From Sarcocystis neurona (Eukaryota > Apicomplexa > Conoidasida > Eucoccidiorida > Sarcocystidae): DNA of 64,000 bases. The translations under genes were made by a program, and so were the position numbers. Positions 2,741-58,683 of this stretch are shown in pieces; within the stretch, counting starts at the first letter, position 1, and every line of letters begins with the position of its first letter. The stretch is from the NCBI GenBank assembly GCA_000727475.1, contig KL647296.1, positions 804,888 through 868,887 on the forward strand, read 5' to 3'. Under the pieces are notes generated by a model. It did no database searches and was not told where the DNA came from. It worked only from the letters and a program-made list of their open reading frames with translations.

Positions 2741-2920
2741 AGTGCTGCTACTACGCGTGGACTGGCACGGCACGTCTTCTTCCTCTCTTTCTGGCACACA
2801 CCTGCACCCGTTGTTTTTCTTGAGTTTCTGACGCCTCACCTGGGCTTGGTGTCTTAAACGCTTTTCTTGCCTTTTTTGTCCTCTGCTTTTCCTTTGCTGC
2901 TGCTGCTGCTGTGCAACACC

Positions 2921-19700: not shown

Positions 19701-21087
19701 GTCGGTCTTCCCACTTTTTGTAAAGGTTGTTCCCACAGCTCGAATGGTGAGGGAGTGTACTCCCGGCGTTTAACTGATAGACTCCAGCAAATGACTCAAA
19801 TGCGTCAATGTTGCCGAATACGGTTCCTCAGGTCTTCATGACCAAACGAAAAGAGTTTGACGTGGCGAAGAAGCGAGTGGCTGGTTTGTCAGAAGAAGCT
19901 GGGGTGGTCCTTTGTACTGGGCGACGGCAGATGCTGAATTCGAGGTAGATCAATAAAAAGCCACTGTCGATGCCTGCGGCACTTTACAGCTAAACACATG
20001 GGTGTCACAAATTCCCAACAGCACGTCGTATTGCTGCGCCACCCCTATCACGGCAGTTAATCGCACAATATCGTATCGACGGTCGCAGGTGGACTCGTGA
20101 GCGGCAGCGAGGCTGCAGGTGCCGACTGACTTAGAATGCGTCGCCCTCCGTGCGACCTTCCGGGCACTGCAGGGCTCAATGTGCCACGATTGACTCGACG
20201 TTGAAGCCGCAGAGCAAGTGGCGCAAACAGGTAAGCATCACTTCTGTAGCGTGACTTTGAAATCCAGCGAGTCGGCTTCTTTTTTTGTTTCTCCTTTACA
20301 TGGACGACTATTTCAAGGCTTTCCTGTCGAGCGCCTTCTGTGCTTGCTTCAGAGTGAGCAGTTCCGGGCGGCGATGAGAATGACGCGGCTGTCAGATCCG
20401 GCAGAGATCGCCGAGGCCCAAGTATGTCTACGTAGCGTGCCGAGATTGGGGATCCAGTCCAAAACGCGTGCAACGCCTCCGGTCCTTCTCGCCAGAATAG
20501 CAGCACAGAAAGGCCAAGGCCTACAGTTTCACTGCGGCGGGCTCAACCACATGAGTCTGTGTTAAGCAGGAAGTGACGCACACTCTGTCGTTTTCTCGTC
20601 GTCTGTTGTCACTCAGGCCATTCTCGCCGAGTTTAGCGAAGCGGCTGCATCTTACAAGTGCCCGCACTGTAGCCGAACTTTTGGCCGTTCTGAGGCGCTG
20701 GAGAAACACCAACGCGTTTGCCTGCGATTGTTCCGGAGCACCCCTGTAGGCCTGAAACCAGGCGTAAGCGCGCGCTCCTCAAAAATGAGCGTTAGCGTGG
20801 GAAAAGGCGACATGGGCACTCCAGCGTATCTTGCTGGTGGCGTTCGCGGGGGTCAGGGCAGGCCTCGGCTAAGCGAAACAAAAAAGCCTTCCTTCGCTGG
20901 GCGCGCCTGTGCAAGCTTGGGAAAAAGTTCCCACGTTGCTGGACAATCTGTATCCTCCACATCGTCCTTCGAGAAAACCACACCCACTCAGCTCGCAACT
21001 GTATCCGAGAAGCCACTGAAGCCGGGAGCAGACATTCACCGTGCGGGACACAGGAGGAATTCTCTCCAGCGTCATGCTACGAACTAA
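16711..21087 (+). CDS. ZC2HC1-type (C2HC/C3H) zinc-finger protein with long N-terminal extension
   Basis: Two Cys-Cys-His-Cys zinc knuckles of the ZC2HC1/FAM164 family, whose molecular role is poorly known. Proposed exons: 16711-16771, 17490-17600, 17932-18118, 18314 to an unresolved donor before 19391, 19563-19628, 19832-19944 (or to 19903), 20353/20355-20421, and 20617-21087 (TAA). Phases fit at every junction given. Finger 1 is CPDCSRTF...HAKIC (exon at 19563). It is followed by KRKEFDVAKKR, matching the family's KRKxFDxxKxR, then EQFRAAMR, matching its HEEFxAxxR helix. Finger 2 is CPHCSRTF...HQRVC in the last exon. The first four exons give about 450 residues, mostly Ser/Arg/Ala-rich and probably disordered, with one helical patch near QELVQAGNLLRLLRRR. 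The join of the 18314 exon to finger 1 is unproven. The finger part might instead start at the ATG at 19551, making the 16711-19391 exons a separate gene. Confidence 0.75.
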
Positions 21088-24000
21088 GTTCGTGATCCAG
21101 CGTGAATTCGGGGGACGCCTACAACCGAATGATTAGATGTGTACGCACAGGTTGCGACTGTTGCCCACCTGACGAATGTGAATCTGTGTAGAGGTGTAAA
21201 GTGGTGCAGATAGAGGGATGTGAAGTGGTGAAGAATTCACGGCATAGAATTTTTGTCGCAAAACACGTCGTTGTGAAAGGCAAGGAATGAGCCCTGCTTT
21301 TTCGCAGCAGGACGGATTCGAACAATTTTCAGGGTAGACGGGGAAAAGAAGTTTTTATTGGGTTACTGCGGGTGCGGCGCAAAAACAGCTCGGATCTGAG
21401 TTTGTAGCAACTCCTTGACTCTGCTCGCCGTGTGAGCTCCATCTCAATAAAATAACTGCAGAGCACAGAACTCCGGAAGTGTATCCAAGTGCGCGGCTCG
21501 ATTAAGACTTCTGAGGTCGACAGGGACGGGCGTTCCCTTTTATGCTCACTTAAAATCGTAGCACAATTTTCTGCCCTTATTGAACGTCAGGAGTTATCGG
21601 CAAAATGGCACGCTAAGAGACATACGCGACGGGAAATGACGTAGATTTTCCTGTGGAAGGTAGACAGTCGAGGTGCTATGCTGGCTAGGCACGTTTATAT
21701 GAGGGACGGCTGCTGGCAGCAATGTCGACTTTGCTGTGTGCTCACATCTCTTTGAACAGATTGGAACTCCATTCACCTATGACACACCTCAACAGCTTGA
21801 AGCCCTAATGACATGTCTGAGCTCAGACACTTGCACACATTCGAGTTTACATCTGAGCGCTCCTACACCGATTTTACAAGGACGCCTTGCAAACATGTGT
21901 CGAAGGAGACACAAGCCTATGAGCGAATCTCCGCTGACGTAAGCTATGGCGACGTGCTGCGGAAGGCAGGAGCGGTAATGTTGGGATCTCCGCAAAAAAT
22001 ATCCCTAACTCTTCCGTTGTATGCGTCATGTTCATGGGGCCGTGCTTGGGGTTTTCGAGCCAGTTTTAGAATTGTTTACGAGAGAATAATAGAGAGGTGC
22101 CTGCCTCCCCTCCGTCCTCTACGAAAATCGTGAGAGGAGAGTTAGCCCACTCTCCCTTTTATTCACCTCGCCTGTCGCGCAACGTAATTGGCACACCTCT
22201 ACGGCGACGGAAGTCGGAAACCGCTGTGAAGCATGTGAAACAAGTAGTTTACACCTGTAAACTACCTGCAAAAGAGTCTAAACAATGCAGACGGATTCTT
22301 GCACACGCAGTTACTACGCGCCTGTTTTAAGTCTCTCCTTCGTTGAAGCTGAACTTCTGGGGAACACGAGTCGGTGATGCGAAGCTGTTCTCGTGTCGAT
22401 ACGACACTTTTTGAGCCATGGAGCCGAGTCATTTGGAATGAAGTCAAGCGGCTGCGACTCAGTTTTAGCGGGACTCGCTGCAGCACAGAATACTCGGTTT
22501 CGCCTTCTTCCAGTGATGCTCCAGGCTACATACTAAGATGCCCAACCTGCACAGTACCGTGCTGCTTCCACAATTGCGTCTGGGATGGTTGTGTTTCGCA
22601 CGACGTGCACGTATACGTCTGCGTAGAGAGCAGCAAAGAGATGCAGAAAAAAGGACGGACGGATAAGTTACTTAGCTACAAGTGAAGGTCCTTATTTTCA
22701 ACGACAGGTGGTCTCCTGGACATCACGGTTTCCCCTGTGCAGCGTATTTCTCAGCTCCACGTTCTGAACAGTGAACTTGCTCAAAGCACCCGTCGGAGCC
22801 TTACCCTGGCGCTAGGGCTGTTGTGCGGCAGGAACTTGATGAGCAGTCAACTCGTCCTTGGAAACTTTTGCTGTACTTTTGAACAGGACTTTTTTGCGTC
22901 TAGTTTCTGATGTCTCCAAGCATGCCCACCTTCTAGACAAAGGTGACCCACGTGAAATGCGTGATACATTGGTTACTATCTACTACGTTTAAGAGCCTTT
23001 GCGAACTACGCAGAGTCCATCCGTCACTGCTTGAACTCCTTTAATTAGGAAAAAAAAAGTGGTAATTTTCGAAGATGCCAAAGAGAGACGTCACTTTTTC
23101 GTCCATTATGTCAAAGAAGTCAATCGGCAAGACATACAAACACAGAAGCAGAGGAATCACGCAGCTGTCATGTAGCTGTCGAGTGCAACGCCGCGAGAAT
23201 CTTCGACATTGTTTTACACGAAAGGTCCACCATATTCCGGGGGACTCTCACATGTATTCGTACACCTGTGAAGAGCCTCATGTGACGTTAGAACACAGTT
23301 CGCCCCGTGAATGCCTTTCACCACCCAGCCACTAGTTCTTCATCTGCCTCTCTCCCACTGGTATCAATCGACCCCATCATCCCACACGTCGCCGGTGGAT
23401 TTCTTGCTGAGTCCCCGTTTCCACCGAATGCCTCACGTTGGTCGCCCTTCCAGATTTGTCCTTCTTCTCTTCAGCCGGATGCTCTTCCAACCAGAAATTC
23501 CTGCACAGAGAGTTGAGTTTCCCTCTTACTTCACTCAATTTAATATTTATTTTAAGATGCACTTGAACGAGGTGGTCAGGCAATATATGCGCGAATTACC
23601 TGTGTCAAACTTACCTATTGGAACGTCATGCATGTGTGTATGAAGGCGAGGATACTGGCTCACGCGAACTTTGACCAAAATGAGACTGTTGTTTGTTGGC
23701 TGCCCCTGCGGTTTTCGGCAAGATCTTGTTGTGCTCTGACTTGTAACGCGTGTGCGCTGCATGCGTCTGTCCTTGGGTTTGTGTGAAGGGAGGTCGCAGA
23801 CAGACACTATTCGTACAAGGTTACCTGTTGCGCTTCAAGTGAGGAACAGCGATTGCGTTCAGCTTTGGAAGTACCTGAGCAAGGGCCTGCGTAGACGCGG
23901 ACAAATCAAAGTACGTCGCACGAGGTCAAGCTACCATCCCGCCAAAAAGCGCATTTTTCGATTCGCTGCCGCGCTGCAGTGGATAGTCACAAATTCTAGT

Positions 24001-24416
24001 TGCTGTTGGTGTGTGAGTGGTAACTGCTTGCTGCTTTTCGCTCTTCCGATATGGGTACTTGGCAGCGTGCGGCTGTGAAGAGAAAACAAAGTCCGCGTAG
24101 CGCGCACGGTCTGCTAGATGCAAGGTTCTAGAAGACTGGGCACGGAGTAGCTATAGGAGCACATGTCGAATGCAACCAGTGTGGCGAAAACTTCCCGTGC
24201 ACGCAGTGTAGTACGTTTTGAGGATACCTCGATCGAACGTGAAATTCTCTTCGTTCTGCTGGAAATGTTGAAGTCTACCGCATTTGCAATCCGTCGTGCC
24301 CCGTCGTTGTTCGATCTCCCAACCTTCACTAATTTGCGCATTGCACTTCGGAGAGCCATACCTCCCTCCAACGACATTTGCAGTACTTCATTAAACATTT
24401 GACGTGTTGTGGTTGG
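21088..24416. other. Intergenic, no gene seen
   Basis: Repeat-poor sequence between the zinc-finger gene (plus) and the phosphodiesterase-like gene (minus), which converge here. Open frames on both strands are under about 110 codons and unlike any family I know. A 94-codon minus frame at 24114-24398 follows directly after the phosphodiesterase stop and could be a C-terminal exon if the GTAAGC at 24424 is used as a donor, but I see no good acceptor. Confidence 0.45.
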
Positions 24417-27400
24417 TCAGCTTACGCTGTAGAGTGGCAACGCGAAATCGTCGATAAGACCAAGCTGCACGGCAGCCTCTGAAGTAGAAACCCGACTGCA
24501 GTTTTTGGAAGTTGGCAGTCCCAACTCAACTTCTTTGTCGCCCTGCGATTCAAGAGGTGCGATAAACACAGTGCGTGTCAGTGCTTTACCAATCAAAGAA
24601 GGTAGCGTCTCGGACCCGCACTGGCGTTGCTGCGGCTCTTTTCGTTTCCCCAGTCCCTTTTTACGTGCCACTGCAAAAGATCGCGTGAATAACTGATCGC
24701 GGATGTGGTGGCTCTGTGGGCGACTTTCGATGCTCACCTGCATAAATAGTTCTTCCATATACTTCTGACTCCAAGCCAAATACAATTGAAGCGGTCGTGC
24801 TAGGAACGAGTAGTTCGCCGCATTCATCATGTTACTCATTAAAATTTTCTTATCCTCAGCAATCGACCGTGGGAAGTTGGCACTTGTATTCTTTGTTCTC
24901 AGCTGGGCTAGAAGGGAACCCTGATTCTGAATGCAACGGGGGATGGGCACTGTGCGACTTTTACACGCGGTGAAACAAGTGCGCAACATACGATGATATC
25001 ACAAGCTACTCCGCAGCCCCAGCGGGTACAAATGGTGTCCAATTACAAGCGACCTATACATGGTCTGACACAGTCGTAGCTTACTGTAGAACTTTTGGCG
25101 AGTACAAGTTGTATGATAACTTTTCTGAGTCCAACGTATTGATCCTCTGGCAAAACCTGAAAAGAACACACGTGGATATCTTACTGAACAGCACAAGCAT
25201 GCAATGACGCACAGGACAATAGGGAAGCAGGCCATGCTCATATCTGACCCCCCACGTGCGACAGCTCTTAATACTTGCAAAACAGCACATCTATCCAGTA
25301 CTTGCAGTTTTATAAGTAGTCAAGCGCGCCGATAAGCCGTTGGCAGTCGAACCACATGTGAGACCGCACCTCACTACGGGTTTGACGATCGCTATGCGTC
25401 CATATGCCTGCACTGCGTTGAAACAAGTTCCACAGTTAACCCTCACGTTGAAGAGTACTTTGCTGAGCTCATCTGGCCCAGGCCTTAGCCTTTAGCTTTT
25501 AGTGTCGTCAATGAAAGCAGCTATACAGGCTGTGTTTTGCTGTGGTGCCGCTTACCAACAAGGGGTCGTCGTCTCCAAGTTTTTGCATCGTTGCGAAAGC
25601 GGAAGCCACATGGTGATTCTCGAGAACATTCCTGTCGTTGTATCTGTCGTCACAGAGTGTTCGGTCTCGAAGCAACGCAAAAATTATGCAGACCGTCAGC
25701 GGCCATCATTGTTCATCGCATAACCAGCCCAGAAGACCGCATCTATCGGAGCTTTGCAGCAGTTGGTACCTGACTGCGATGGCGTGATGATCTTTGACGA
25801 GGAAGGATGATGAGAATCCCGGGTGTTGGTAGTCGTACATAACTGCTGCTAATAGAGTCCCGAGGATTTCTCTCGAATTCAAAAATCCTTTGATCTCATT
25901 GTTGAGCAGAAAAAGAAAAAAGTGCACCGCCTGTAGTACTTCTGCCGAGTGTGTAGAATTGTGGAAGGGAACATCGACATACGACGTCCTTTCCAGCTCA
26001 ATGACAAACTTGAGCATATCCTCGATTTTGATGTTGAAAATGGCGCAGACGTCCTGCAGCGAACATAAGACGAGATTCCCATATGCGAACACTGCCTATC
26101 TTGTAACACCTTGTGTCCGGCTGCATCTTCTTGTAAATGTGTTTCGACGTGGCTGCCCTACTTCGTAAGCTGGCGGTTTTGTTCGTGAGCTAACCCGTCA
26201 CCCACCTGGTGCTGTAGGCAGCGGATGAAGAGCTTCGGAAGCGTAGCCCTCCCCGCAATCTGAGGCGCAGTAATATAAGTGGTAATAGCTCACAGGAGCC
26301 AATTGATCAACATTTCTTTGTGCCCGCTTTCTTGCTGAATCAGCAGGCGAATGTTGCAAAATGAAAGTGTTCTGACCCAATGTGACGAGCGCACATAGCA
26401 AGCACGAAACAGCGGGCTACAGGTGTAAGTTCCTTGAATTCGGGCGACGACAGTTTGACTGGGGTAGGAGTTTGAAGTCATACAAGGTGGTACTCTCTAG
26501 ATGACGACGGTGGAAATGGTGAAACAGAAGAAACTTACTGCTTGATACCTTAGCACATCGAAGGTCCAAGTCAGCAAATTGTTTGACAGGTAATGTTCGA
26601 TAGCCTGACGCAAGACAACCCACCTTTGAGCATGTACAGTCTTAAAGGGTCGAATGAAACTGTAATCTCCTTCGTATTTGGTAAAATGTGAAGCAGCCTC
26701 GCTACATGAAAAAGTCAGCAAGTGGGCGGCGAATGCAACACCGCTCTCGATGGCAGCGCAACGGCGCGACTCAAAGAACAAAGGCGGCGTGACGCGACAA
26801 CCCCCGCTCGAGTCCTACTCACTTCACATTCCACAGGATGTAAAAGGTCTCGGCTAACATTCTAATTTGGAGAAGTCGCACTGAAAAGTACGCAGGCCAG
26901 TTGTTGCTCACTTGGTCGAGAGATACATCGATGCCGTACTCCATCTGCAGTAAAGCCAGAAGGTTTGCTTCGCTGGCTCCTTCCTGAGGAAAAAGTAATC
27001 CGCAAAGCACGCCTCTCCCGCTGCGGCCCACACCCAGCTACGGAGGAACGGCCTATTTGTTGATCTCTACAGTAGTCAGTACAAACTTCCTCACCCACCA
27101 CCATGACAAAGAATGGAACCGCGAGTTACGAAGCATTTCAGTATACGCATTTGAGTGGTTTCACTAGTGAGTGCAGCGATACAAATTGGGTGCAGACACA
27201 GTACCTGAGTTTTCCTCTTCATTCTTTCTCGTAGTATATTTTCCATATCATCCGCCATCTGATCCTTCGCCTGCGCCTGCACAACACCCATACGCCTGCA
27301 ATTCCGAGATTACACGCGAATTTGTCCGGAAAGGGGGGGGCAGTGGAGCTAGGTGCACGCCTTAGAGTGCGTGTAAGCAAAACTATCTGCAAGGCTTGCG

Positions 27401-30400
27401 AAAACTGCAAACGCGACACCACTCAGAGCGCACGTTCGCTGGACACACCGAGGTGTGTTTGCGTTACGCGCCTCCGTAAGAGTCGTACGAAAATATGTAT
27501 GGAGCTGATTTCTCCACCCCCGACACACTTTACGTAGAAGACACAATTATACTGACTTTATGAGACTGCGTCGAGGCTAAAATCCATAAACACATGAACA
27601 CTGTACCGCGACCCTGTTGACCCTTATTGCATAATTGCTGTCAAAGATTTGCTCGCTTGCTCCAAAAAGTGTTGACTTTGCCGCACTTGATCCGATATGA
27701 TAGCAGTCCACGCCTGGAGGTAAGGGTCCCTTTTGTCCTTTTTATCCGCCCTGTCGTGTTCCAGGAACATCTAAACAAACGTAAACGGTGACGTATACAG
27801 CCGAGTAAGCGTCATTGGCGGCCACCGTATGCCTACCTCACGTTGGCTTTCAGAGATAAACACAGTGCAGAATCTCCCGTACTTTCAACCGCACAATACG
27901 TGTTGGCTCGAACAGTCATACGACTCGTATTGACTTACTCTATCTCATACAACTTGCCAGAAGCAATCGTTTGAATCAGTCATACGACTCGGATTGACTT
28001 ACTCTATCTCATACAACTTGCCAGAAGCAATCGTTTGAATCAGCCACTTCAGAGTTGCTTTCTCGCGTGCTGAAAGTTCCTGTACAGTGTACAGCTTCAC
28101 GAAACTTAAAACAGGTTCTAGAGCCAATTACAACACTACAACAATGTGTAGTAGGGGAGGAGTGCTGGGCCGGCCACTGCGGATTACCACCTACCCCCTC
28201 GTAGTTGCAGGCGCAAAAACTATGTCCCGACAACGAGTACAATTATTCTGTTCTATATGTGAAACAAAGCAAGATCCTCGAAAAATTCAACTGGGGGTGC
28301 TAGCTCAGCGTCCGAAAAGGTGTAATGATGTGCTCGCGTTAATCTGGAGCCAGTGCCTTCGGGTGTTCACATTGGGAACATTGGTAGCGGGCTGCTGGAC
28401 AATGACATCCCTGCACGCTGGCGTGACTTACGGCGTGATACTAGCGGTGTGTCGAAGATGGATTTCCGGCGATTTTGTGCGCTGTGACGTACCTCTATTT
28501 CGAGAGCCTTATTCAGCACGGCAATAGCTCTGTCAAGTGTGCTGGAAAATACCGCCTTTCTACTGATGCTTAAAGATCCTGTAGGCGGATGGCGGAGTCG
28601 GTATAACCGAATCAAACGAAGGCTGAAAAGAATCTGACAAGTGGAAGCAGGTACAAGGAGAATTGCCTGTTACGCATTTCAGCGAGGAGACTTGGATGGT
28701 CGGCAGCGGGCAACTACTCACTGACTGGGCGCCGCCACCTCACGTGTGCAAGGCCTTTGTTGATGGAAAACAAGCTGTCGACGATTCTGAACACGACTCC
28801 AGAGCAAACGAGAAGAGCATCGATCGCATTGATAATGTCTGCGAGGTAAGTGCTTGGGCCTTCAGCGAACATCCGCAGCGCCAACTCGACGACGAAGAGA
28901 CAAAGCACAACCAAGTCAACGACGTAGAGGACTGCTTCCGCCTGCATCGCGCCACACGTACACATAGACTAATTACCAAATTACAGCACATAATTATGGC
29001 CTGCGGTCCCCACGCAGAACACGATCTTTGCCGATATTGTCGTGCGTGCCGTGTGCACTAAATCCTTACAAGATTATGACTCCTTGTTGTGTTGATAGCG
29101 CTGAGTTCCCATTTATGAGCTTCACTTCCCGCGTAATTTGGAGTGACGCGTGGAAATAACCCTCACACTGTGGGAACCGCTACTGTGTTCAGACAGACCG
29201 TGAACGGTTCGATCAACATACCTTCTGGAGCGTCGCCAGGCGTTCGTACAGTAGCTGACATAATACCATGTTGATGAAGAGGTCAAGGACCATCCAGCCG
29301 AGCAACAAGCCGAAAAAGATTTCAAAGCCTCTGTAGTTGACAAGTTTGCGGACCCGCCGTTTCGCTTTCACAAGATACGGCGGAGCAACAACTTCGAAAT
29401 TGAAGTCCTCCTTGCTTGGCTTCTCCTTCCCGCAACGGCGGAACATAATGTACCTGCATGGAGTACTAACTGATCAGTGCAATTATCACTGCACTGAAGA
29501 CCGGTGAATGACGTAAGGGGGCCGGACATATGTTGCTTCACTTACCAGACTAGAATGCTGCATAAGGTATTTATCACCTGCTCGAAAATGATTACGAGAA
29601 CAAAAGACGTCCACAGTACGCCTGGACGCGTCACGTTGCTGTTGACTACGTAGATCCTGTAAGAGGGACAGTTACAAAAAGATACAGCGCAGAGGACGCC
29701 AAAGATCTGACCACATCAGTTGTCTACAGCAAATGAGTTTGACCGCCGAGGTCTTCAGTATAACACGGCATAATTGAAGTGATTGCCATCGTGTGAAAAC
29801 TGTGCAGGAGTCGAGATCGCAGCTTGAGATATACGAAACGCACTAACAGCGTAGCACTATCTGGCCGGTTTTTGTAGACGACATTAATTTCAGTGCAGAA
29901 GGTAAAAATACTTCATTATACTCATTTCTTCTAATCAACGCTTACCGAAAAAGGCTCGCTGCGAGTAGAATCAGAGAAGTACTGACAATTCCAGTAGCAA
30001 TAAGTTGCAGTGCACATTTGGCAGCTGGCCTGCTCATCGCTTGAGGGTCGGTGTCACCGGTGGTCATTGCCCACACAGCAAAGAAGTCGAAGATTGTGTT
30101 TAGTAAGAGGCTGCGGGCAGCACAACATGACAGCTTGTCGGGACTGCGGGCAAAATGCTCCCGGGCATCAAACTTTAATTATTAGTAGAGGTTAAGCGGA
30201 CTAAGTGTATCCTTCGTGGCGCTGAAAGGCGAAGCTTGCTTTCTGTGATGTCCGCGGCAACGCGACGTTCAACGTGCAAAACCATGTGTGGAGCGACGTG
30301 TACTACTTTGAGGGTGGGTGACCTTCGAAGGTTGCTGCGAGGGACTCCCACATAGGATGCCTGCAGTGCCGGCTGTTCGCTGCTCAGCACTGCTGACTCT

Positions 30401-32298
30401 ACGTTCTATGATCGGAGCGCACCCAAGTAGCGCCGCGAGCAAGACGCGTACGATGTCAAAGCAGATTGGAGTTCCTGCACACACAAACGCTGCGAGACAT
30501 ACGTAGGTAGAGCTTCTGGGAAGTACTGGGCAAACAAGGAAACCTACAGTAACACACGGTTGACCATAGATACTTTTGATTCTACAGAAGTTTGTGGGAC
30601 AACTGCCGCGAGGCACAAGGAAGTGGTTGCAAGTGCGGCACTGCGCAGGTTAATCCTGAGATAATGTTGGGAACACACGAACTTGTGGAAAGGCTAAGAC
30701 CTCTTCTCAGAGGTCAAAATGGACCTACCTACCTTTAATGCAGATCTCATTCGGGAGAACTAAACTTTCGCAGGTGTCGACTGGGTCGACACACAAAAGT
30801 GACGGCGGATTTGAGGGATTGCACTGAAACAGCGGGGATGACAAGCATGCTTCGCCGCCACATGCAAAGGAGGTATGCCCTACTTTCGTCCACAAAGACA
30901 CACAGTGGATGTTGACGGGATCTGACTGTTTGGCGCTGGCAGGGCTCACTCTTATACATTTCAACCGGTCCCGTTGGCTCTACCAGGTGCAACACCTCTC
31001 GTTTCACCGCCGACTTTTGCATCACAGAAGAGTCTTTAAAACACAGCGGAATGACTGTTTTCGTTAGTCTCCGGAGAAAGCTTGTTACCATATGTACGGA
31101 CATGGCGCTTCGTCGTCCAGAACGCTCAAAATACATTGATGGACTAATGAGGGCACTGTCTGACACGGATATCCATAATCTGAGACGGAGAACCATATGA
31201 ATCCTCAGTGTTCTCTGTATCTCTCCAGCGCCTTGTGGAGTTACGAGGTCGCTCGAAAGCAGTGCTGCAGTAAAAAACGCTCCCCTAATAATGCATACTA
31301 CAGGTGATGCGCTTCGCAGCAATAGCCCCGGTGATTCAGTCGGCCCCAGGGTGCACTTCGCATCGCTCCTTTCACCCTTACTGGTGTTCTTGTGTCGGTC
31401 ACTGGAATTCCGTTGGGTGGTTGTGCAAACCAAAGATTCGGTGGAGTGAATATGATGTCCGTTCCGTCGTTGAATTTCTGCGTGAAGACCACATCGGATG
31501 CGGCTCTGCAGCCAGGGAAGCACGTGTGTGTACGCTTCACCGTCCTTCTGTCCCTTTTCAGATACTGGAGCTGGTCGGTTGTGCTACGCATTATGTCGTA
31601 GCACGTCTTCCATGATTGTTCGGTGCCAGCTCTATCATTTGCGCCAGAGCCCGCAAATTCATAGTAGTATAGCAGCTCGTATAGATTGCCGCCAAATGTG
31701 AGGCTCTCATTTGATGTGCCGCAGGAAAGGTTGGGAAAGGCTGCAACTACGCAGTCACGTTTGCAGGTAGTTCGCTCATCGCAGTCGAGGAGACGGTTGA
31801 AAGGAAAAATTTGCGAAAAAAGCTGCACAAACACAACCACAGAGGCATCAAAGAGGCGCGCGCAGAGGCACTTGGAAGGGGTGTGATGCAGTCTTTCGGC
31901 CCCGACTTCCGTTCCTTAGGCGCTCCAATAGTGACTTGGTGGTCTGTTTTTTCCGCGGTTCTGTACAGACGCGCAGTGCAGTACGGTGTGCAATGTGAAC
32001 AGTGTTGATTCCTTCTGTAAAGGTACTGACAACCAGTCGCCGTGCGTCTATGACTCACACGTTGAGACACTGAAGGCGAAGAAGTGACGTCAAAGACCGT
32101 GTGTGTTGTAATGGCGGTGAAGAGAAGAAGGTTAAGCAGATAATACAGAAGGTGGAATGTGCGGACGCAGAAAGACTGTCTTTGTTCTTCAGGAAGGTAG
32201 TGCTGAGGACGCAATCGCAAAAATATATTACTTGACTCCAAGTGCGTACGCAACGTAGGCACCCCATTGGGGTGTTTGGAGTAGTTGTGAATCCACAT
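24417..32298 (-). CDS. Multi-pass membrane protein: voltage-sensor-like domain fused to a degenerate cyclic-nucleotide phosphodiesterase
   Basis: Exons, 5' to 3' on minus: 32298-32059, 31822-31382, 31214-30950, 30879-30733, 30474-30423, 30110-29946, 29656-29546, 29453-29222, 28941-28744, 28633-28493, 28079-28003, 27295-27205, 26983-26912, 26604-26539, 26259-26206, 26053-25770, 25643-25556, 25156-25085, 24926-24738, 24542-24417. They sum to 3111 bases (1036 aa) with all phases in register. An in-frame TAG lies eight codons before the start ATG. Order: helix about 47-68; a Cys-rich outer segment about 80-365; several helices (365-480); S1 about 517-540; S2 with FVVELALR; S3 with NAID; S4 with Arg at 623, 626, 629, 631; helical linker; PDE domain about 750-1030. 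The PDE part keeps HNSTH, ENHH and MQGDKE, but HD is YD (Tyr857) and ADIS is ANYS (Asn970). Apicomplexan PDEs commonly have N-terminal helices. Least certain are the 30950/30879 join and the C-terminus. Confidence 0.88.
27913..28040. repeat. 64-bp tandem duplication spanning an exon end and splice donor
   Basis: Bases 27913-27976 and 27977-28040 match at 63 of 64 positions (T at 27928 versus G at 27992). Each copy contains the last part of the minus-strand exon 28079-28003, its GTAAGTC donor and the start of the intron. So the gene has two copies of this donor about 64 bases apart. Confidence 0.92.
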
Positions 32299-40200: not shown

Positions 40201-43200
40201 GTCCTACACGTCTGGTTCTACGATTTTTGCGGGTATACCTCGTTTGCATTGCGATGGCACCCTTTGTAAGAAAATGCAGTCTTAGTGCCCTGATGTCACT
40301 ATTTCTGTCACCTACGGTGACGCTACACGAGTTCCTTCGTCTGCAGCAGGGTGGCAAGAATATCTCATACGTATGTCACTATCGAATAAGAGTGAGATTG
40401 CCGAATGTGTTCAGTTCTTCGTCTCGAATGACCTCGTTTTTACTGGGGCAGTCCCTTGAATACGTCGTCGCCTACACCGTAAAACTTTGACCGCATATAC
40501 AGGCACGTATAGGGAGGACGTATAGGTAGCATCTATGAACCTGTCTCGATCTTCCGCTCACGGGGCCATCTCACGCGTCACTTCGCAGGGAGATTAAGGT
40601 TAAAGTGACGGGTTTTGGCAAGGTGGCAATCGTTCCCATAATACCGCTACCCAAATGACAGCTGCTAGAGCCTATCCCCACAGGTAATAGATAGAGCTGC
40701 CTAAAAGTCGAAATTGGTGTCCCTCCGCGTTCATGCACCCTGCGTCGTGAAAAGCTGCAGGCAGGACCGCTGCACGTAAAACAGTGGGTGCTACGAACAA
40801 GCACAGCGACTCTTCCACGCCACCTGAGAAATCTTGTCAATACATCTACGCAGACCTACGAGTGTATACGGTACATCTATGCTCTCCTCTATATATAAAC
40901 ATGCATCATGACAACCTGCAAGCAGAAATGACTGCAGGCAAGACCACGAGCACTACAATGACATCAGCTCCTCCACGCTACCTGTTCAGAGCTATATACA
41001 CATATGTATTGCTGTCTCTGAAATATTTTTGGCGTTTTCTCTATATTTCTACGCCTATATACGGTACCTCTATGTCGTCCTCTCTATGAGGGCATCCCCC
41101 TTAGCTCTGTGTGCACGGAGACATATATACACGCAAAGTGCAAATTCACCCGTCTCCGTATCACGCGCCGCGTCACCGCCTTTTTGTTGTGCGCGGGTGG
41201 CCACCGCGGTGCGTCTTGAGATTATTAGGAAATTTGGGGACGTAAGAGTCATGAAAAACTCCCTGAAGTCGTTGAGAACGATGTGCCTGGACCACTGTTA
41301 CTAAGATGTACATTTGAGGTCCAGCAACGTGGATTGTGTCCTGGATACAGACTGAGTCTCCTACGTACCCTGCAAAAGCGTCTGTCCGCCTGCAGAATAA
41401 CCTGAGGTGATTGCAAGATCGTCGCGCAGTTCGGGAAGATTTTCCCTTATTCCAGCGGTGCAGTAAATTTGTTTCGCGATTTGCATGAGAAGGGTCGTGT
41501 CAGCGGTGTCCGCACCAGCAGCGCAGTTCTACAGCGCCCGCACAGCACACCGGGTGATGATGCTACAGCACATTCATAGCGGTGCAATGCTAATGGCTAC
41601 AAACCCGTGTAAGAAAACTTTCAATGACGTACAGAGGACTACTGGGCTGCAGCAATGCAGTAGAATGGCGCACGGCTCGAAGGGCTCGCCAGAGTGTTAG
41701 TTCTCGCCGAAGTAATTTAGTAAAAACTCATGCGAGGCGTTCGCGCGGAGAACGTCTGCCTCTGCTCTCCTATCTGTCAAAACTGTTTGTTCACTGTCTC
41801 GGTTTTCAGCAACGTACTCCACCATCTTGCCATTTTTACAAGTCTTCTTCACTGTCGATCATCCTCTTGTTAGGTTTTCACCCACGCAGTCTCTCTTGTT
41901 CGTTTTGTTTCCTTTTTCTTGAGCCCCACTTCTCGGATATCTTCCTCCCTTGTTCACAACCACCTCTCGTGAAGGGGAGTTCTTTCACTTTCCTACTATC
42001 TACATGTATGTCTTCCATTACATCCGCCAGACAGGTAGTCACTGACAAGTCCAGACACACAAAAGTCACTATTCCTGTTTTCACAAATCTACTGCAGAAT
42101 CACTTGGGCCCATACACATGTGTACCTCAATTTGTCCTGCCACTTCACACCTATAATCTACCCAGAAAGGTGCTCTCGTGCACATGTTTACCTTCACAAA
42201 TATATATATATATATACTCACAAATATATAAACGTACTTCTACGCTCACATCTGTATACATATTGTATATGCATATGTATGCGTATAGGTATGTATACAC
42301 AAACACGTAACATATTTCAGATATGTGTATCTACAGCTTCACATGAATTCCTCTTCTTTTTCCTTCAATCACCTCCGGGGACCGAAAATTCTTGTCACAT
42401 TTGCATATCTTTCCCACATAAAGCGCTTTCATCTTCCCCCCCTCCCGGAAGTCTTTGCACGTTTGACTTCTTTACATATCTCGGTTTTCCGCCTCCCTCA
42501 TTCTACTTTGTCGTGCCTTCCACCAACGAAGTGGCCACAACCACTTCTCTTCATCAAAATTATTGACAGCTTTCCCCTCGTACACAATACCAACGTAAGC
42601 CGCCTCTGCATTAGCTGTCTGAAGTGAAAAAGCGGTGACCTTGATAAGCCGTTCACTTTCACACAGATCCGTTTCTCTGTAAGACGCGCAGTCCTCCTCC
42701 ACCGGAACTACTGCTGTCCCCGCTGCTGTTTGTCGTTGCGGCTGCTGCTATTGCTGCCGCTGCTCCAGCTGCTGGTATTGCTGCTGTTCCTGCGGCTGCT
42801 GGTGTTGCTGCTGCTGCGGCTGCTGGTGCGGCTGCTGGTGTTGTTGCTACTGCGGCTGCTGGTGTTGCTGCTGCTGCGGCTGCTGCTGTAACTGCTAATA
42901 TTGCTGCTGCCGCTGCTCTTCGCCTGACCCAGTTTGTCTGCTAGGACAAAGTCATTTTTTGCTGCTGTTGCTGTGGCTCCTTTGCCAGCCGCTCCCTTCC
43001 TCCTCCGTTTGATCAAGCGGCACCGCCCCGTCACAGTTGTCCCGTCCCATATCTACCTTATGTTGCTTTGTTTATTGCTGCTTCTGTTCGTCGATTACAT
43101 GCTGCTCCTGCTCGTACCAGCCCGCTGCTGCTCGATGCGGTAATACGCGCCGGTGTCCGTCCTTTCCCCCATTCTCTCTCCTCTTCTGCCGCCGCTGCAG

Positions 43201-43322
43201 CTCAACGGGAGAAAAATTTTGGCGGCGATGGCACATCCCCACTTCAATCTTGTGTTTCCTTGCGACGGCCGCTTCCGCTGCAGCTGCTCCACTTCCCTCC
43301 ACCGATGCAATTCCTTCTTTTC
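37250..43322. other. No gene seen; boundary from repeat-poor to repeat-rich DNA
   Basis: 37250-41600 is repeat-poor with only short, incoherent frames. From about 41700 pyrimidine-rich and microsatellite sequence returns, with TATA/CATA runs at 42180-42310 and CTG runs at 42710-42910. A minus frame at 42708-43034 (KNDFVLADKLGQAK, then Ser/Asn/Arg from CAG runs) could be a further 3' exon of the RING gene if the GTAGGA at 43325 is a donor and not part of its TAG stop; I could not support the join. Confidence 0.4.
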
Positions 43323-45288
43323 CTACTCCTCTTCCGCGTGTTCTTCTGCCGCTGCTGTTGTTCCTTCCCTTCCCACTGCGTTGCCCGCCTCGAAGACAAA
43401 AAGATCTTCTACCGCCGCGCCTTCCTCTTCTGTTGCTGCTCCGCTTTCTTCGACTGCCGCTGGTGCTCCTGCTGCTGCGGACGTCCCCTTTCCCTGTGCA
43501 CTTGTTGCTTCTTTTCCTTTCTCTTCTTCAACTGCTGCTCCTGCTCCTTCTCGTTGTGCAGCGAGTGGCCCTTTCGCTGTCGCTACACGTGGCACTTTCT
43601 CTGTCGCTGCGCCTTCTCCTGCTCCCGCTGGTGTCACCGTGAAGGCGGCTGCTCTCGACGCTGGTACCGTTTCTGTTTCTGCTGGTGTTTCTGCTGCAGC
43701 GTCTGCTGCTGCTGCGCCGTCTGCTGCTGGTGCTTCTGCTGCAGCGTCTGCTACCGCTGTTTCTCCTGTACTGGCTGCTGCCGGTTCTCCTGCTGCAGCG
43801 TCTGCTGCTGATGTTTCTGCTGCACCCCCCGCTGGTGGTTCTTCTGCTCCAGGATGCGCTGCTTCTGCCTCGGCTGCAGCACTTGCTGCGGGTTCTCCTG
43901 CCGCAGTATCTGCTGCTGCTGCTGCTCCTCCTCCTCCTCTGGCAGACGGTACCCGCAGCAGCAGGTGAGTATTACGTGGCAGGGGGGGCAACGGGACGGC
44001 TCGGATGCCCTGCAGCAGCAAACCGCGCAGAGTCACAGCAAAAACGTCTCTGTTGCAGTCGGTCGCCAACTCGTGGCCCTGTGATATACACTCCTCCTTG
44101 CAGATTTCCGGAGTTAGCAACTTATACAGAAGATACTCTTATTTATATTACATCCGTCTCTCTCACTGCGTGCGCTTGCACAGCATAACAAACAGACGAA
44201 CGCCACAACAGCACGTACACACTATATATATATATATCGGAGAAGAGATAAGAAGATGAACTTGTACGTAAGCACACTCGACAAAAAGTAGACACATAAG
44301 ACGCATACTCGTTCTTTATAGGACGACACGGATACACATATACATATGTATATATATCTTGAAATTACAGACAACCACGCATGTAGTCAGAGAGTTCCGA
44401 ATTCTCTCTTTGTATGCATACATACATATGTGTAGAAATACATATACACATATACGTAGATGAACTGCGGAGAAATGTCTATACATACATATATAGATAG
44501 ATAGAAAAACTTGTACACAGCGACGTTGGAGAAGCACACATATTACATGCATATTTACTTTTTTATAAGAGGACACGTACCCCCACACATTTACATATAT
44601 AAATACTGAAGCTACGCACACCAAGAATACAGGCGGATAGCCCCGGCTCGTGCTTCTCTCTCGAAAGGCAGAAGACCTACTGAGAAATGCCCCCCCCCCC
44701 CCCCCCCCCCCATGCAAAGGAGCAGCCTGCAGAATTTTTTCGCCAGCGTGTCCGCGTTGCCACACGCACTTCGACGAGGACGGTCGCAGAGAAGCAGCCG
44801 ACCTCCTCCCCCATAAAAACACATCGGCCCGGACGCATGCGAGCATCATCATTCACGTACATACACGTATACGATTTTCATGTAGGCCTTCACACGAGAG
44901 ACATAAACCTGGGCAGCTAAACATATGTATACAAACACATACACACACATATACTAAAAGTACGCGAAAAATATGACCCCGTCTCACTCTCTATTTCTCT
45001 GCATGTGAAAGACACATGTAAATACAAGACACACATCAATACAGATATACGTGGATACACATATACACGTACATATATTATACATATGTGTAAATACGGA
45101 GAGATACACATGAAAGGGCATACATGTGTGTACAGCCATACACGTATATATTAAGTATATACGAATGTAAGACATATATTCTATACATACATACGTGTGT
45201 ATACACAAACATATATTTATATACACATACATGTATTGGTATGTATGTATTGACGTAGACATGCACACAGACAGACAGATAGACACAT

Positions 45289-45335
<47 letters not shown>

Positions 45336-48300
45336 AAGACGCAGATATACGTACATCCAACATACACGTGTATAAGCAGTCAGGTGGCGTTCCCAAAAAT
45401 AGGCTCTTCTTCTTCTTGGCGAATGTTTCTCCTTTTTAGGGGCAACAAGAACGTCCCCGCAACACTTCCTCAGAAGAGGAGGAAGGGAAAACGCAGCGGT
45501 TGTCGCAGCAGCAGCACCAGCAAAGGACTCACTGTCATATCGACGAGATAACGAGAGACACGCTCCAGCACACGCCCGAAGAGACCCGGCACTTGAATCG
45601 ACGCCATGTCCAAAAAAACGTCCGGCACTGCAGCAGCAGCAGCAACAGCAGGGGAGGCCGCAGCCGCGGCACGTGCGGCAACAGCAGCAGCCGCATCACA
45701 GCAGGAGGGAGGCGCACGAGTCGATCCAGCAGGAGCAGCAGCACAGCAGCAGCAGCACTGCAGAACTGCAAGAGCGGCGGTCGAGCAGGACGAGCAGCAG
45801 CAACACGACAACCAGACGAAACGTGCGGCTCGAATTCTTCTTCTCTCACGTCCCCTCTTTCTCCTTATAAATGTTCGCACATCTGCGAAGATTCACGTAA
45901 ACATTCATTCTCTCTCTATATACACATACATATATATCTATATATATACATACGCATATATACACATATATACATACGCACATACTCATATATATATATA
46001 TATATATATGTACGTTTTGGCATGGGTGTAGACAGTTATGTGGCAATGTTAGTCGGTCACTTACGTGTAAAATAACACATGCGGAGCAGTTCCCCAGTAA
46101 CAAGGCAGCCACGCGTTTGTATTCATAAATTCGAGGTATATCACGTGCTTCACATCACTTATTAGACTTCTGCAAGTCTACAACTGCGCTCCAGCAGAAA
46201 AGAAACCCCACGCACGACACGCAGAAGCAGAGCAGGGAGCCAAGAACAGCCCAGCAGGATCCACCCGTTTCCGCAAAGAAAATGGCTTACATATATATAT
46301 ATATAAACATGTACATACATATACATAGATGCGTCTACAACTACATACATACACATATATACGCATATTTATATATATATATATAGCAGCCGCAGTAGCC
46401 GGAGCTGTGTACGAAGAAACAAAAGAAGGGGCAAGAGCAGCAGGAGCTGCAGAAGAAGAAGACGGCGCAGCAGCAGCGGCTGTCGAGGAGGACGAAGCAA
46501 AAGAAGACAGAGCACCAGCAGCAGCCGGAGCTGTGGATGAAGAAGAACAAGATGCAGCAGCAGCAGCTGTGGAGCACGCAGGAGGACGAGCAGCAGCAGC
46601 AGCAGATGTAGGCGAAGAAGAAGGAGGTGCAGCAGCAGCAGCAGGAGCTGAGGACGAAGGGAAGNNNNNNNNNNNNNNNNNNNNNNNNNNNNNNNNNNNN
46701 NNNNNNNNNNNNNNNNNNNNNNNNNNNNNNNNNNNNNNNNNNNNNNNNNNNNNNNNNNNNNNNNNNNNNNNNNNNNNNNNNNNNNNNNNNNNNNNNNNNN
46801 NNNNNNNNNNNNNNNNNNNNNNNNNNNNNNNNNNNNNNNNNNNNNNNNNNNNNNNNNNNNNNNNNNNNNNNNNNNNNNNNNNNNNNNNNNNNNNNNNNNN
46901 NNNNNNNNNNNNNNNNNNNNNNNNNNNNNNNNNNNNNNNNNNNNNNNNNNNNNNNNNNNNNNNNNNNNNNNNNNNNNNNNNNNNNNNNNNNNNNNNNNNN
47001 NNNNNNNNNNNNNNNNNNNNNNNNNNNNNNNNNNNNNNNNNNNNNNNNNNNNNNNNNNNNNNNNNNNNNNNNNNNNNNNNNNNNNNNNNNNNNNNNNNNN
47101 NNNNNNNNNNNNNNNNNNNNNNNNNNNNNNNNNNNNTGAGGACGAAGGGAAGGAGAAGAGAGAGCAGCAGCAGCAGGTTCTGTGAGTGAAGAAGAGGAAT
47201 ACGAAAGAGCAGCAGCAGCAGGTTCTGTGAGTGAAGAAGAGGAATACGAAAGAGCAGCAGCAGCAGGAGCTGTGGACGAAGACGGAAGACGAGCAGCAGC
47301 AGTAGCAGTCGCGAAAGCAGTCGCTCTTTTTAAGAGGAGGACACTCTCCAGCAGTAGCAGCAGCTGTGGAAGCAGCTGCACCAGCAGCAGCAGCGGGAGG
47401 AGCAAAATCGAAGAGGATAACTACTCGCATACGAAGGCGTGGCAGCACAGGCGGAGCAACAGCAGCAATGGGAAGAAGGAAGGTAGCAGGAGCAGCACAT
47501 GAGCAGCACAGAAAGAAGCACCAACGGTAGGAACAGCAGCATCCGGTGTCTTGCAGGAATGTGTGTCGCGCGCGTACAGCAGCGGAGAGGAGGTGGGCCA
47601 GGGCAGCAGCTGCTGCAGCAACAGAAGCAGTCGCGCGGTGATCCTCGTAGTCGTAGCGCAGCAGAGGACGGACCCCGGCGGCCGCCAGACGCACGCGGCA
47701 GCAGAGATATAGCAAAGAAAGCAGCCACGGCAGCAGCAGCAACACACCGCTGGCTAGGGCAGCGGCACCAACACACCGCTGGCTACGGTAACAGCAGCAA
47801 CACACCGCTGGCTACGGCAGCAGCAGCAACACACCGCCTGTTGCGGCAGCGGCAGCAGCAGCAACACACCGCCAGCTACGGCAGCAGCAGCAGCAGTGCG
47901 GAAGCAGCACCTTCGCAGTAGCAACGGCAAAATCAAAAGAGAAGCAGCAACGAGAGACATAAACGTAAAAAGCAAATGTCGATGCGGGGCGGGGCGGGGT
48001 CGTCTGACCACCGGGACGGAGCAATAGACTTACTTTCTACGTGGAAGGCAGCGATGGGCGAGAGATTCAACGCGGCTGCCTGAGTTATTCCCCAGAGAGT
48101 TGCAGCAGCAATAGACGGTTCGGCAGCAAGGGCAGTTGAATCTTGAAAATAATCTGCAGCAGCAGCAACCGCAGCAACAGCTGCTTCTTGCGCGTCTTGC
48201 AAATCTTGTGCGGTAGCAATGAAACACTCCAGGCTTCTTCGGACTTGTACAGCTGCTGCAGCGACTTCTGCTGCGCTGGTGCTGCCTTGCACAGGACTTC

Positions 48301-51300
48301 CACCGCGTCCTTCATATTCTTCTGCTGCTGCTCCAGATGGTCTACTTTCCCTTTCTTGCCCCGGCACAGAATGTCCCAACGAAGACACAGATAACGTGGC
48401 ATCATCAGCAGCAGCAGCCGGAAGGCCACCAGCAGGAGCAGCCGGAGGGGCACCAGCAGCAGCAGCGGGCGGTTCTCGTTTCTCTTCTTCGTCTCCAGCA
48501 GCACGGCGATGCGCCTTGAGTTCCTGCTGTTCTCCTAAAGCGCCCTCACGTGGCTCAGCAGCAGCTTCTGCTGGAGAACAAGAAGTCAACGAAGAAGGAG
48601 CAGCAGCAGCCCTGTCGGTAGCCGCCGCAGCAGCTACTGTCATGTCTGTAGCAGTGGCGGCCACCACGAGGGCAGCAGCAGGAGGCTCAGTTGCTGCCGG
48701 AGTCCCGGCAACACGAAGAACCGACGACAATGGAAAAGAAGAAGAAGTGGGGACTTCTCTTGCTGCAGATGTGGAAGAAGTTGCACCGCCTAAGGCAGCA
48801 GAAGCTCGCGCAGGAGCAACAGGCGCAGGAGCAACAGGCGCAGCAGCACCAATAGTAGGCGAAGCAGGAGACGTGCGGACGAGATTTGATGCCGCAGCAG
48901 CTGCTGCTGCTCCTGCTGCTACTGGGGAGAAAGCAGAGAAAATCTGCGCGGCTGCAGCAACTGTCTGCGGATCTGCTGAGGGCAGTGCCAAGACGATGAC
49001 CAGCGGCATGTAAGCCTCTGTTATCAAAAAACGAAGAAGAAAAGCCAGCAGTAGCAGCAGCACAGGACCATCCTCAGCGGGACGGATCCCAACAGGAATT
49101 GCAGCAGTACAGGACGCGGAGAAACGGAGCGGCAGCAGGAGCAGGCGCAGCACGAGAAGCAGCCGCAAGAGAAGCAGCAGCAGATACAAGCGAAGCAGTG
49201 GAGAGACCGACACAGGCACAGCACGAGGAAGAGGAAAGACAGCAGAAGAAGAGAGATATACAGAATCCACTTCAAAGTTCCGCATTCAGCAGGGAAAGAC
49301 GCAGCTGCTCTAGGAACACTGCAAAGTGATCCACAGTAGCAGCAGCAGGTGTTGCAGCAGCACCAGCAGCAGGTGTTGCAGTACCAGCAGGACAGCCGCT
49401 TCTTTTTCTTCTGTGACCAAGGGAAGCAGAGCACTCGACGCAGCAGCAGCGTCAGCAGCAGCAGTGTCAGCGGCGACAGCAGCAGCATCCCCGTGCACCG
49501 CGCTACGTTCGTCTCTTCGAACGTTTCACTTTTATATGGACAACATCGCAGGAGCTGTGCCCCGAGAGAATCCCAGAGCAGTCAGCCACGTTGGGACGCC
49601 GACGCAGCACAGCAGCACCCGCAGCCGCACGCGCTTTATAACGCCAGAGCGGCAAAGTTTTTTTCTTCAAAGAAGACGAGCGGCACCAGCTGCAACGCGG
49701 CACAGCAGCATCAGCAGCAGCAACGCGGCACAACAGCATCACGAGCAGCAACGCGGCACAGCAGCAGCAGCAACGCGGCACAGCAGCAGCAGCAACGCGG
49801 CACAACAGGAGCAGCAGCAACGCGGCATCGCAGCAGCAGCAACGCGGCATCGCAGCAGCAGCAACGCGGCATCGCAGCAGCAGCAACCCGGCATCGTAGC
49901 AGCAGCAATCCGGCATCGCAACAGCAGCAACCCGGCATCGCAGCAGCAGTAACACGGCCCCACAGCAGCCGATGTGGCGCGCGCGCTTTTAGGGGGAAGT
50001 ACAGATCGGCGCCCCCAGGAGGATGCACCACAACACAAGGAGCAACACCATCAGCAGCAGATTCTTTTGCTGGTGCTGCACACAGCGACAGGGATCGCTC
50101 AACACCACATGCATCAGTCCTCCTCTTCCGTTGAAGGGAAAGCAGATGCAGCAGCAGCAGCAGGACCCCTTATACCGGCATATCACGGCAGCTTTATGGC
50201 GGCACGGCAGGAAAAAATCTGGCAGCAGCGCCATACTGAGCTTGCGTTTCTTCATAAAAACACCAACAGCAATAACAAAGATTTGCAAGTGCTGCTCCTG
50301 CTGCTGCTACCGCTGCTGTTACTGCTGCTGCTACAACTGCTGCTACAACTGCTAATCGTGCTGCTCCTACTGCTGCTGCTGCTACTGCTACCGCTGCTCG
50401 TACTGCTGCTACAGCTGCTGCTGCTACAGCTGCTGCTGCTACAGCTGCTGCTGCTACGGCTGCTGCTGCTACGGCTGCTGCTGCTACAGCTGCTGCTGCT
50501 ACAGCTGTTGCTGCTACAGCTGCTGCTGCTACAGCTGCTGCTGCTACAGCTGGTGCTATTGGTATTGCTGCTGCTGCTGCTACCCTCCTGCTGTTGTTGA
50601 AAGTGCAATGCTGCTGCTCCTCCTGTAGTGCCCTCCTAGTGCTGCTGCTGCTGTTGTTGACTCTCTCACGCTGCTGTTTTTTTTTTACGAAAGCGGCCGC
50701 CCTGCTGTTTGGCGAAACGCTCCTGCTGCGGTGGCCCTGTTGTTTCCCTATTCAACGTGCTGCTGCTGCTACTTGGCGTGCTGCTGTTTCTCCTGTTGCC
50801 AAGAGTGACCAAAATTATCGCAGGGCTGCTGCTGACGGGGTTGCTGCTGCTGCTGCTGCGAGATGAGTCGAACCTTCCTCAAAATCTTCCTCGCCAAAAT
50901 CAAGCAGCGGTTCCGTCGCTGCTTCATCGGCAGAGGGTCGCCTGCCCCCCGCGGCTGCTTCTGCGGCAGCAGCAGCAATGAGAGAAGCAGCAGCAGCAGC
51001 GCCAGTAGAGCCCATCCGTCGAACCGAAGACCCTGTTGCTGTTGCTCCTGCAGACACCGCAGCTCCACCACACCTCACACACACTTTCTTCCTCAACTGT
51101 TGCAGGCCTCTTCTTCCGTCCCAACGTGTCTTTAGACGCTACTTCTGTTGCCGTGTAGCGGAGTCTGCTGCTCTCTCGCGCCCTCTTCTTCTTGCTGCTG
51201 CGGGTGAAACGGTCTTGCTGCTGTTACTGACTCCGCTGCTCCGCGGCTGCTCCACCTGCTGTTCTCGTTCTCTCCCCTCCCGTTGTTGCTGCTGCAGCCG

Positions 51301-57736: not shown

Positions 57737-58131
57737 CTGCACACAGCAGAACAAAACGGCCCATAAAGAAGACAACACACCCCCCCCCACATGAAAAAAG
57801 AGACGAAGAAGATGCGAGGGAGGAGACCTTCCTGTGGAGAGGAGAAGAGGAAGTCTACGCGGAAGAGACGAAGGCTCGCGCGAGGCCGTTCCATTGCGCA
57901 CGGCGGGCAGAAAAGGACCGAAGCCAAGCGAGAAAAGCGGGATGGGTAGTAAAAACGAGAAAAGACGAAAAAGGAAGACAGGGGCGACAGGACCGGAGAA
58001 AAAAGGCATGCGAAGGAAAGGAAGGCGTATAGAGGACAGAGCGACACGAACGCCCACACAGAGAGAGACGAGACGGAGAGAAAAACGGCACTGAGAAACC
58101 ACCAGGAGACAAAAACGAAAATAAAAAAAGA

Positions 58132-58207
58132 GGGGAAGGACAGAAGAAAAGGGGAAGGACAGAAGAAAAGGGGAAGGACAGAAGAAAAGGGGAAGACAGA
58201 AGAAGAA
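58132..58207. repeat. 19-bp tandem repeat, four copies
   Basis: The unit GGGGAAGGACAGAAGAAAA starts at 58132, 58151, 58170 and, shortened, 58189. The first three copies are identical. Confidence 0.9.
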
Positions 58208-58683
58208 GAGGGGAAAAAAGAGTGACGTAATTGGGGGAAAAGACGCGCCTAACGCTGCGTCCTCCTCCTCCTCCGTGTGGGAGCCACCGCATGCAAAACG
58301 TCTGCAGGAGGGAAAAGCATGCAGTGAGCGTGAACAGGGAGATCCACGTGGAAAAGGAGGGCAAACAAACGCATGCACAGATACTGGAGAGGAGACATAC
58401 TAAAAGGACGAAAAGGAGAAGAAACCGGAACAAACCAGCAGGAAGAAAATGAGGCAGCAGCGTGACCAAAAACAGACGCATGCAACTCACCATCACTCAC
58501 CATCTATGGCAATAAAACAAACTCGGTCTCCGCAAATATACACACATACATACGCACATATATATATGAGCGTACACATACATAGAGAGAGACAGATGCG
58601 ATTGATATATATATATATATGTATATGTTTGTGTACATATGACCTCCACGTAGCTCGATAATGACATATATACATATATATAT

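Follow-up and report, generated by a model that had tools for sequence, protein, structure and literature searches.

A predicted Sarcocystis neurona protein combining a pore-less voltage-sensor-type domain with a phosphodiesterase fold that has lost metal ligands

Gene model and domain order

The stretch analyzed here, 64,000 nucleotides of Sarcocystis neurona DNA (assembly GCA_000727475.1, contig KL647296.1, positions 804,888 to 868,887 of the forward strand; hereafter the window), contains a minus-strand gene at 32298-23377, whose 22 coding exons, rebuilt from splice sites, encode a predicted protein of 1003 amino acids. Its domain order is a first transmembrane helix (TM1), a cysteine-rich ectodomain, three further helices (TM2-TM4), the helices S1-S4 of a voltage-sensor-type domain, a linker and the fold of a class I cyclic nucleotide phosphodiesterase (PDE). 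The first-pass annotation had described a voltage sensor fused to a PDE fold with no pore between them; the pore-less fusion stands, and it also occurs among further Sarcocystidae and in non-coccidian sequences, but two of the four metal ligands of the PDE fold are replaced.

Exons 1-6 lie at 32298-32059, 31822-31382, 30823-30733, 30474-30423, 30110-29946 and 29656-29546, exons 7-12 at 29453-29222, 28941-28744, 28633-28493, 28079-28003, 27750-27687 and 27276-27205, exons 13-18 at 26983-26912, 26604-26539, 26259-26206, 26053-25770, 25643-25556 and 25156-25085, and exons 19-22 at 24926-24738, 24542-24426, 23886-23825 and 23500-23377. All 21 introns have GT-AG borders, and the reading frame is continuous, with 1003 open codons. 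The exon 13/14 borders were placed by the Toxoplasma orthologue. Two borders are weak, the exon 4 donor (gtgcgc) and the exon 11 acceptor; both were set by colinearity with the orthologues and align gap-free with the T. gondii protein. In addition, a 64-bp tandem duplication (98% match) at window 27913-28043 copies the 3' end of exon 10 including its splice donor, which results in two near-identical donors 64 nt apart.

The gene had previously been drawn on the same strand as 20 exons spanning 32298-24417. The strand holds, but the TGA at 24417 is intronic, lying after the donor GTAAGC at 24425, and the last two exons, which encode the end of the PDE domain and the tail, had been missed. A longer model of 1065 amino acids was also rejected, since its extra 62 residues represent a retained intron, where the T. 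gondii and Besnoitia besnoiti proteins indicate a GT-AG intron; the same two Pfam domains, with the same profile ranges, are found in both models.

The number of small exons, the two weak borders and the fact that the gene model is predicted from sequence could suggest an artefact, with a PDE gene wrongly joined to a fragment of a channel. This is very improbable, however, because the database proteins of T. gondii and B. besnoiti have the identical domain order and align with the S. neurona protein end to end, and because four non-coccidian proteins likewise carry sensor, linker and PDE in a single chain. A two-gene model was therefore discarded, and the proposal that helix exons and PDE exons might belong to different genes finds no support.

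At the N-terminus, hydropathy places TM1 at residues 45-69 (32092..32166), where it forms the weakest transmembrane peak, and TM2-TM4 at residues 258-371 (29441..30733, spanning introns). Between them lies the ectodomain of about 190 residues (residues 70-257; 30734..32091, spanning introns), whose 11 cysteines are all kept in five of five Sarcocystidae sequences. The loop preceding S1 has a net charge of +7. Since the number of extra N-terminal helices is even (four) and this loop is positively charged, the sensor would be oriented as usual, with the PDE on the cytosolic side, as judged from hydropathy and loop charge.

The S1-S4 domain and the linker

Voltage sensors are marked by a phenylalanine and a glutamate in S2, an aspartate in S3 and an arginine at every third residue of S4. 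In the S. neurona protein, S1 spans residues 408-436 (29246..29332), S2 residues 448-472 with F460, E463 and R467 (28858..28932), S3 residues 480-500 with N482 and D485 (28774..28836), and S4 residues 511-525 with R516, R519, R522 and R524 (28589..28633). The motifs FVVELALR, NAID and RLIRLYRLR, on which the sensor had first been recognized, are indeed found at window 28896-28592 on the minus strand; the four S4 arginines are present as claimed, but they had been numbered 623, 626, 629 and 631.

Profile searches (Pfam Ion_trans, a hidden Markov model (HMM) and a family profile) likewise score S1-S4 as a voltage-sensor-type domain, in agreement with the first-pass annotation. Pfam Ion_trans matches with 34.6 bits (cut-off 25), at profile positions 12-105 of 241 only, which we read as S1-S4. 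A single-sequence search of the PDB returned CaV2.2 (5.9e-6) and Ci-VSP (5.6e-4), while a family profile made of ten of the twelve sensor-plus-linker sequences at hand matched CaV1.2 (5e-44, four repeats summed), Hv1 (1.2e-16), Ci-VSP (1e-14) and TPTE2 (3.3e-13). Furthermore, an HMM built from six non-coccidian sensor-plus-linker sequences gave the S. neurona protein 55.2 bits, against 10.1 for the best of 1000 shuffles. The S2 phenylalanine and glutamate, the S3 aspartate, two S4 arginines and the LY of the linker are invariant in 10/10 aligned members of the family of proteins that join a voltage-sensor domain to a PDE (VSD-PDEs). By its helices, motifs and profile similarity, S1-S4 is a member of the voltage-sensor domain superfamily.

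As had been proposed, no S5-P-S6 stretch follows S4: the Ion_trans match stops at profile position 105, and it ends at 105-126 in all six VSD-PDEs scanned. Beyond S4 no pore is apparent from hydropathy either, the highest 19-residue value (1.32) falling inside the PDE fold, as it does in the T. gondii orthologue (1.53). Lacking S5-P-S6 after S4, the protein does not classify as a voltage-gated ion channel. A single pore-less S1-S4 sensor placed N-terminal to a cytosolic enzyme is the layout of the voltage-sensing phosphatases (VSPs), and the S. neurona protein resembles Ci-VSP and TPTE2 in having such a sensor directly before a cytosolic enzyme fold. Unlike in a VSP, the effector position is taken by a class I PDE fold with an incomplete metal site instead of a PTEN-like phosphatase, no family of which appears in Pfam up to E 1, and the S. 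neurona protein has four extra transmembrane helices and an ectodomain.

The linker (residues 526-652; 26912..28588, spanning introns) carries a family motif around residues 565-582, with its LY motif at 28058-28005. When five coccidian linkers were compared to seven non-coccidian ones, hhalign returned E 1.8e-5 with a probability of 78%, and the linker HMM matched the five coccidian proteins at E 4.7e-5 to 0.0018, the best of 400 shuffles reaching 0.18. No PDE1 N-terminal or PDE4 upstream conserved region (UCR) family is among the Pfam matches up to E 1. A UCR2/PDE1-type identity of the linker was hinted at by a mixed profile, to which PDE4 long forms align from position 210-216, but it was unsupported by hhalign, as the alignment of the VSD-PDE linker to 35 of 105 PDE1 N-termini gave E 0.06-0.19.

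The phosphodiesterase fold and its relatives

The PDEase_I domain and fold are present at residues 653-963 (23500..26604, spanning introns), and with 68% identity to Toxoplasma this is the best conserved region of the protein. The metal ligands of class I PDEs, which we take to be H164, H200, D201 and D318 in PDE4D numbering, correspond to H, Y, D and N in S. neurona, so that two of the four are replaced. The affected sites are the HD metal pair, now Y765-D766 (25832..25837), and the last metal-binding aspartate (D318), now N878 (24813..24815); in addition, K837-S838-S839 (25088..25096) takes the place of T-D-M. The catalytic histidine H723 and the purine-binding glutamine Q929 (24465..24467) are retained. 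In T. gondii and B. besnoiti the four positions read R, W, D and N, three of the four being replaced; H164 is thus still a histidine in S. neurona and an arginine in T. gondii. The T-D-M stretch is lost in 4/4 coccidian sequences reaching that region, while the four ligands are kept in 17/17 aligned non-coccidian PDEs, namely the four VSD-PDEs and 13 PDEs without a sensor that were hand-picked from 120 listed. The D318 exon is missing from the Neospora model (P0003), and the PDE from a partial Cystoisospora entry (P0004); three further sensor-plus-linker fragments found in database searches (P0121-P0123) were left out of these counts.

Replacement of the metal ligands, which also sets the protein apart from human PDE1 and PDE4, suggests that it is probably a pseudo-phosphodiesterase, rather than a voltage-gated cyclic-nucleotide hydrolase. 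The latter, an active PDE in which the sensor raises or lowers cyclic-nucleotide breakdown, is improbable: the fold, H723, H727, D766 and Q929 remain, and the non-coccidian VSD-PDEs possess a complete metal site, but H200-to-Y and D318-to-N in S. neurona, H164-to-R, H200-to-W and D318-to-N in T. gondii and B. besnoiti, and the loss of T-D-M speak against it. Consequently, the first-pass idea of a PDE that connects membrane potential to cyclic-nucleotide breakdown does not hold for the coccidian proteins, although an active voltage-controlled PDE is the natural prediction for the relatives that keep all ligands. Decay into a pseudogene could also account for lost catalytic residues, and one PDE stretch elsewhere in the genome (L003, G000:C16:1092131-1092478) has HN in place of HD and contains an in-frame TGA, so that it may be decayed, unless the match spans an intron. 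For the gene studied here, however, decay is hardly credible given the open frame across 22 exons, the strong conservation of the PDE fold and a D318-to-N change common to S. neurona, T. gondii and B. besnoiti.

The T. gondii orthologue (P0001; 1037 residues, 118.0 kDa) is 57% identical over 1003 columns, and the B. besnoiti orthologue, with the same layout, 56% identical over 1002 columns, which answers the earlier call to look for this arrangement in other coccidian PDEs. Because the T. gondii match aligns end to end and its mass agrees with the published 118 kDa of TgPDE4 (Vo et al. 2020, Table 1, PMC7720076), the S. neurona protein is, by sequence, the orthologue of TgPDE4 (TGGT1_229405). 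For TgPDE4, that paper describes an ion-transport domain resembling those of channels and a catalytic region with 'many substitutions'; it states that all TgPDEs but TgPDE4 and TgPDE14 contain most signature residues, and lists TgPDE4 as not expressed in tachyzoites. Two other sources report Ion_trans portions in TgPDE4 and TgPDE16, as well as failed attempts to obtain recombinant, highly active TgPDE catalytic fragments (Moss et al. 2022, PMC8809380), and place TgPDE4 and TgPDE16 in clade B, coccidian-only among the apicomplexans analyzed, with expression restricted to cat stages (2023 review, PMC10865986). TgPDE16 was not found by name here, and its catalytic state is taken solely from the statement of Vo et al. 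Given this expression in cat stages and not in tachyzoites, the link to egress and motility that had been proposed is not supported. According to a review, Sarcocystis has 11 PDEs and a genome roughly twice that of Toxoplasma.

Database searches yielded four non-coccidian VSD-PDEs with S1-S4, linker and PDE in one chain, P0005, P0125 and P0126 from jgi-labelled sources and P0006 from a transcriptome labelled MMETSP0469. In contrast to the S. neurona protein, these keep all four metal ligands and, in the sequences given, have no TM1-4 or ectodomain before the sensor; P0005 begins close to S1 and may be cut, and P0125 is truncated near its end. From these sequences, one origin of the sensor-PDE fusion is plausible. 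Two results speak against it, however: the linker HMM also matches two PDEs without a Pfam sensor, P0010 (E 9e-4, better than the 0.0018 of the S. neurona protein itself) and P0067 (3e-3), hence VSD-PDEs are not alone in having the LY motif, and a PDE-domain tree of 17 sequences did not unite the coccidian proteins with P0005 and the P0006/P0125/P0126 group in one clade, with support of only 34-67 at several nodes. Neither a single fusion origin nor the order 'active first, then lost' is therefore shown by the tree. The helix motif with LY after S4, which is weak in P0010 and P0067, may be a general N-terminal element of PDEs.

A second gene of the same layout is found elsewhere in the S. neurona genome (L009, G000:C3:1377500-1387400), with transmembrane helices and a cysteine-bearing ectodomain. 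Its S4 is degenerate (R..R..D), and in its PDE site H-D has become H-Y, the last D is replaced by E and the glutamine by I; its frame matches the linker HMM at only E 2.6. The genome control covered eight PDE stretches, in which the HD pair was assessed by pattern only; two of them, L006 and L008, are separated by about 2 kb and may belong to a single gene.

Elsewhere in the window, an open frame at 2858-3865 (+) contains the start of a ParA/NUBPL-type P-loop (26.2 bits, just below the 27.1 cut-off), one at 20566-21087 (+) contains a C2HC zinc finger and one at 57026-58399 (-) a RING-H2 finger. The region 42737-50600 holds many CAG/CTG-type repeat arrays together with long open frames.

Proposed mechanism and significance

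We put at roughly 60% the probability that the pore-less voltage-sensor-type domain, the conserved linker and the disarmed PDE fold form a voltage-driven binding switch that carries out no cyclic-nucleotide hydrolysis. In such a switch, a change in membrane potential would move S4, the linker helix would pass this movement on, and the PDE fold would alter its binding of a partner (e.g., an active PDE) or of a cyclic nucleotide via the retained glutamine, while the ectodomain may contribute an input from outside ligands.

Several observations weigh against this proposal. S4 has three arginines at a spacing of three and one more, and the invariant pair differs between alignments (R516 and R519 in one, R519 and R522 in another). 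The structure model of the T. gondii orthologue is weak overall (mean predicted local distance difference test score (pLDDT) 61.1), with the PDE part at 75-96, S1-S3 at 67-85, the S4 blocks at 53-64 and the region before the sensor mostly below 55; the P0006 model is better (mean 81.4, sensor mostly 82-94). In structure comparisons of both models the matches listed were all PDEs and the sensor fold was not confirmed, from which nothing follows for the fold of the sensor or the ectodomain, and the sensor assignment is accordingly based on sequence profiles. Finally, the retention of H727 and D766 makes a reduced metal site possible, and the F372 position is a leucine, which may weaken nucleotide binding.

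Alternatively, the sensor might merely be a membrane anchor or a proton/cation leak, with the ectodomain and a pseudo-PDE scaffold doing the work and voltage playing no part. The few S4 charges, the conserved ectodomain cysteines of the Sarcocystidae and the degenerate S4 of the second gene are consistent with this reading, which nevertheless seems unlikely, since the S2 phenylalanine and glutamate, the S3 aspartate and two S4 arginines are invariant even in distant relatives that do not have this ectodomain.

The proposed switch can be compared to ACalpha of Plasmodium and ciliates, an adenylyl cyclase with a voltage-sensor/K+ channel domain (Weber et al. 2004, cited in PMC10651576). Both are alveolate proteins joining a voltage sensor to cyclic-nucleotide chemistry, but ACalpha has a pore and a cyclase, neither of which is present in the S. 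neurona protein by Pfam. Beyond channels, passages of the same review of voltage-sensor domains (PMC10651576) name the sperm Na+/H+ exchanger, the adenylyl cyclase of protozoa and VSP; the word 'phosphodiesterase' is absent from its main text. Exact phrases such as 'voltage-sensing phosphodiesterase' were absent from the literature searched, which mostly did not include subscription papers, and the term matches in PMC9619220 and PMC12075863 do not concern the S. neurona/TgPDE4 protein. In the accessible parts of Vo et al. 2020, Moss et al. 2022 and the 2023 review, no passage describes the TgPDE4 domain as a voltage sensor lacking a pore, or the PDE as a pseudoenzyme; the published reading is ion transport and a coordination with the transport of cations. 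The fusion is thus partly known from print, while its interpretation as a pore-less sensor with a pseudoenzyme is new within the literature searched.

To conclude, voltage sensors beyond ordinary channels are few, and with one attached to a PDE, the breakdown arm of cyclic-nucleotide signaling would have an electrical input of its own. We propose, tentatively, that protists carry voltage-sensing phosphodiesterases, a novel kind of enzyme whose pore-less sensor would drive cyclic-nucleotide breakdown, and that the Sarcocystidae version became a voltage- and ligand-sensing pseudo-phosphodiesterase, which may feed membrane potential into cyclic-nucleotide signaling in the intestinal (sexual) stages. 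This more specific prediction would take the place of the cation transport suggested in print for TgPDE4, and the disarmed coccidian form raises the testable question of what a PDE fold that is conserved but has a broken metal site does behind a voltage sensor.

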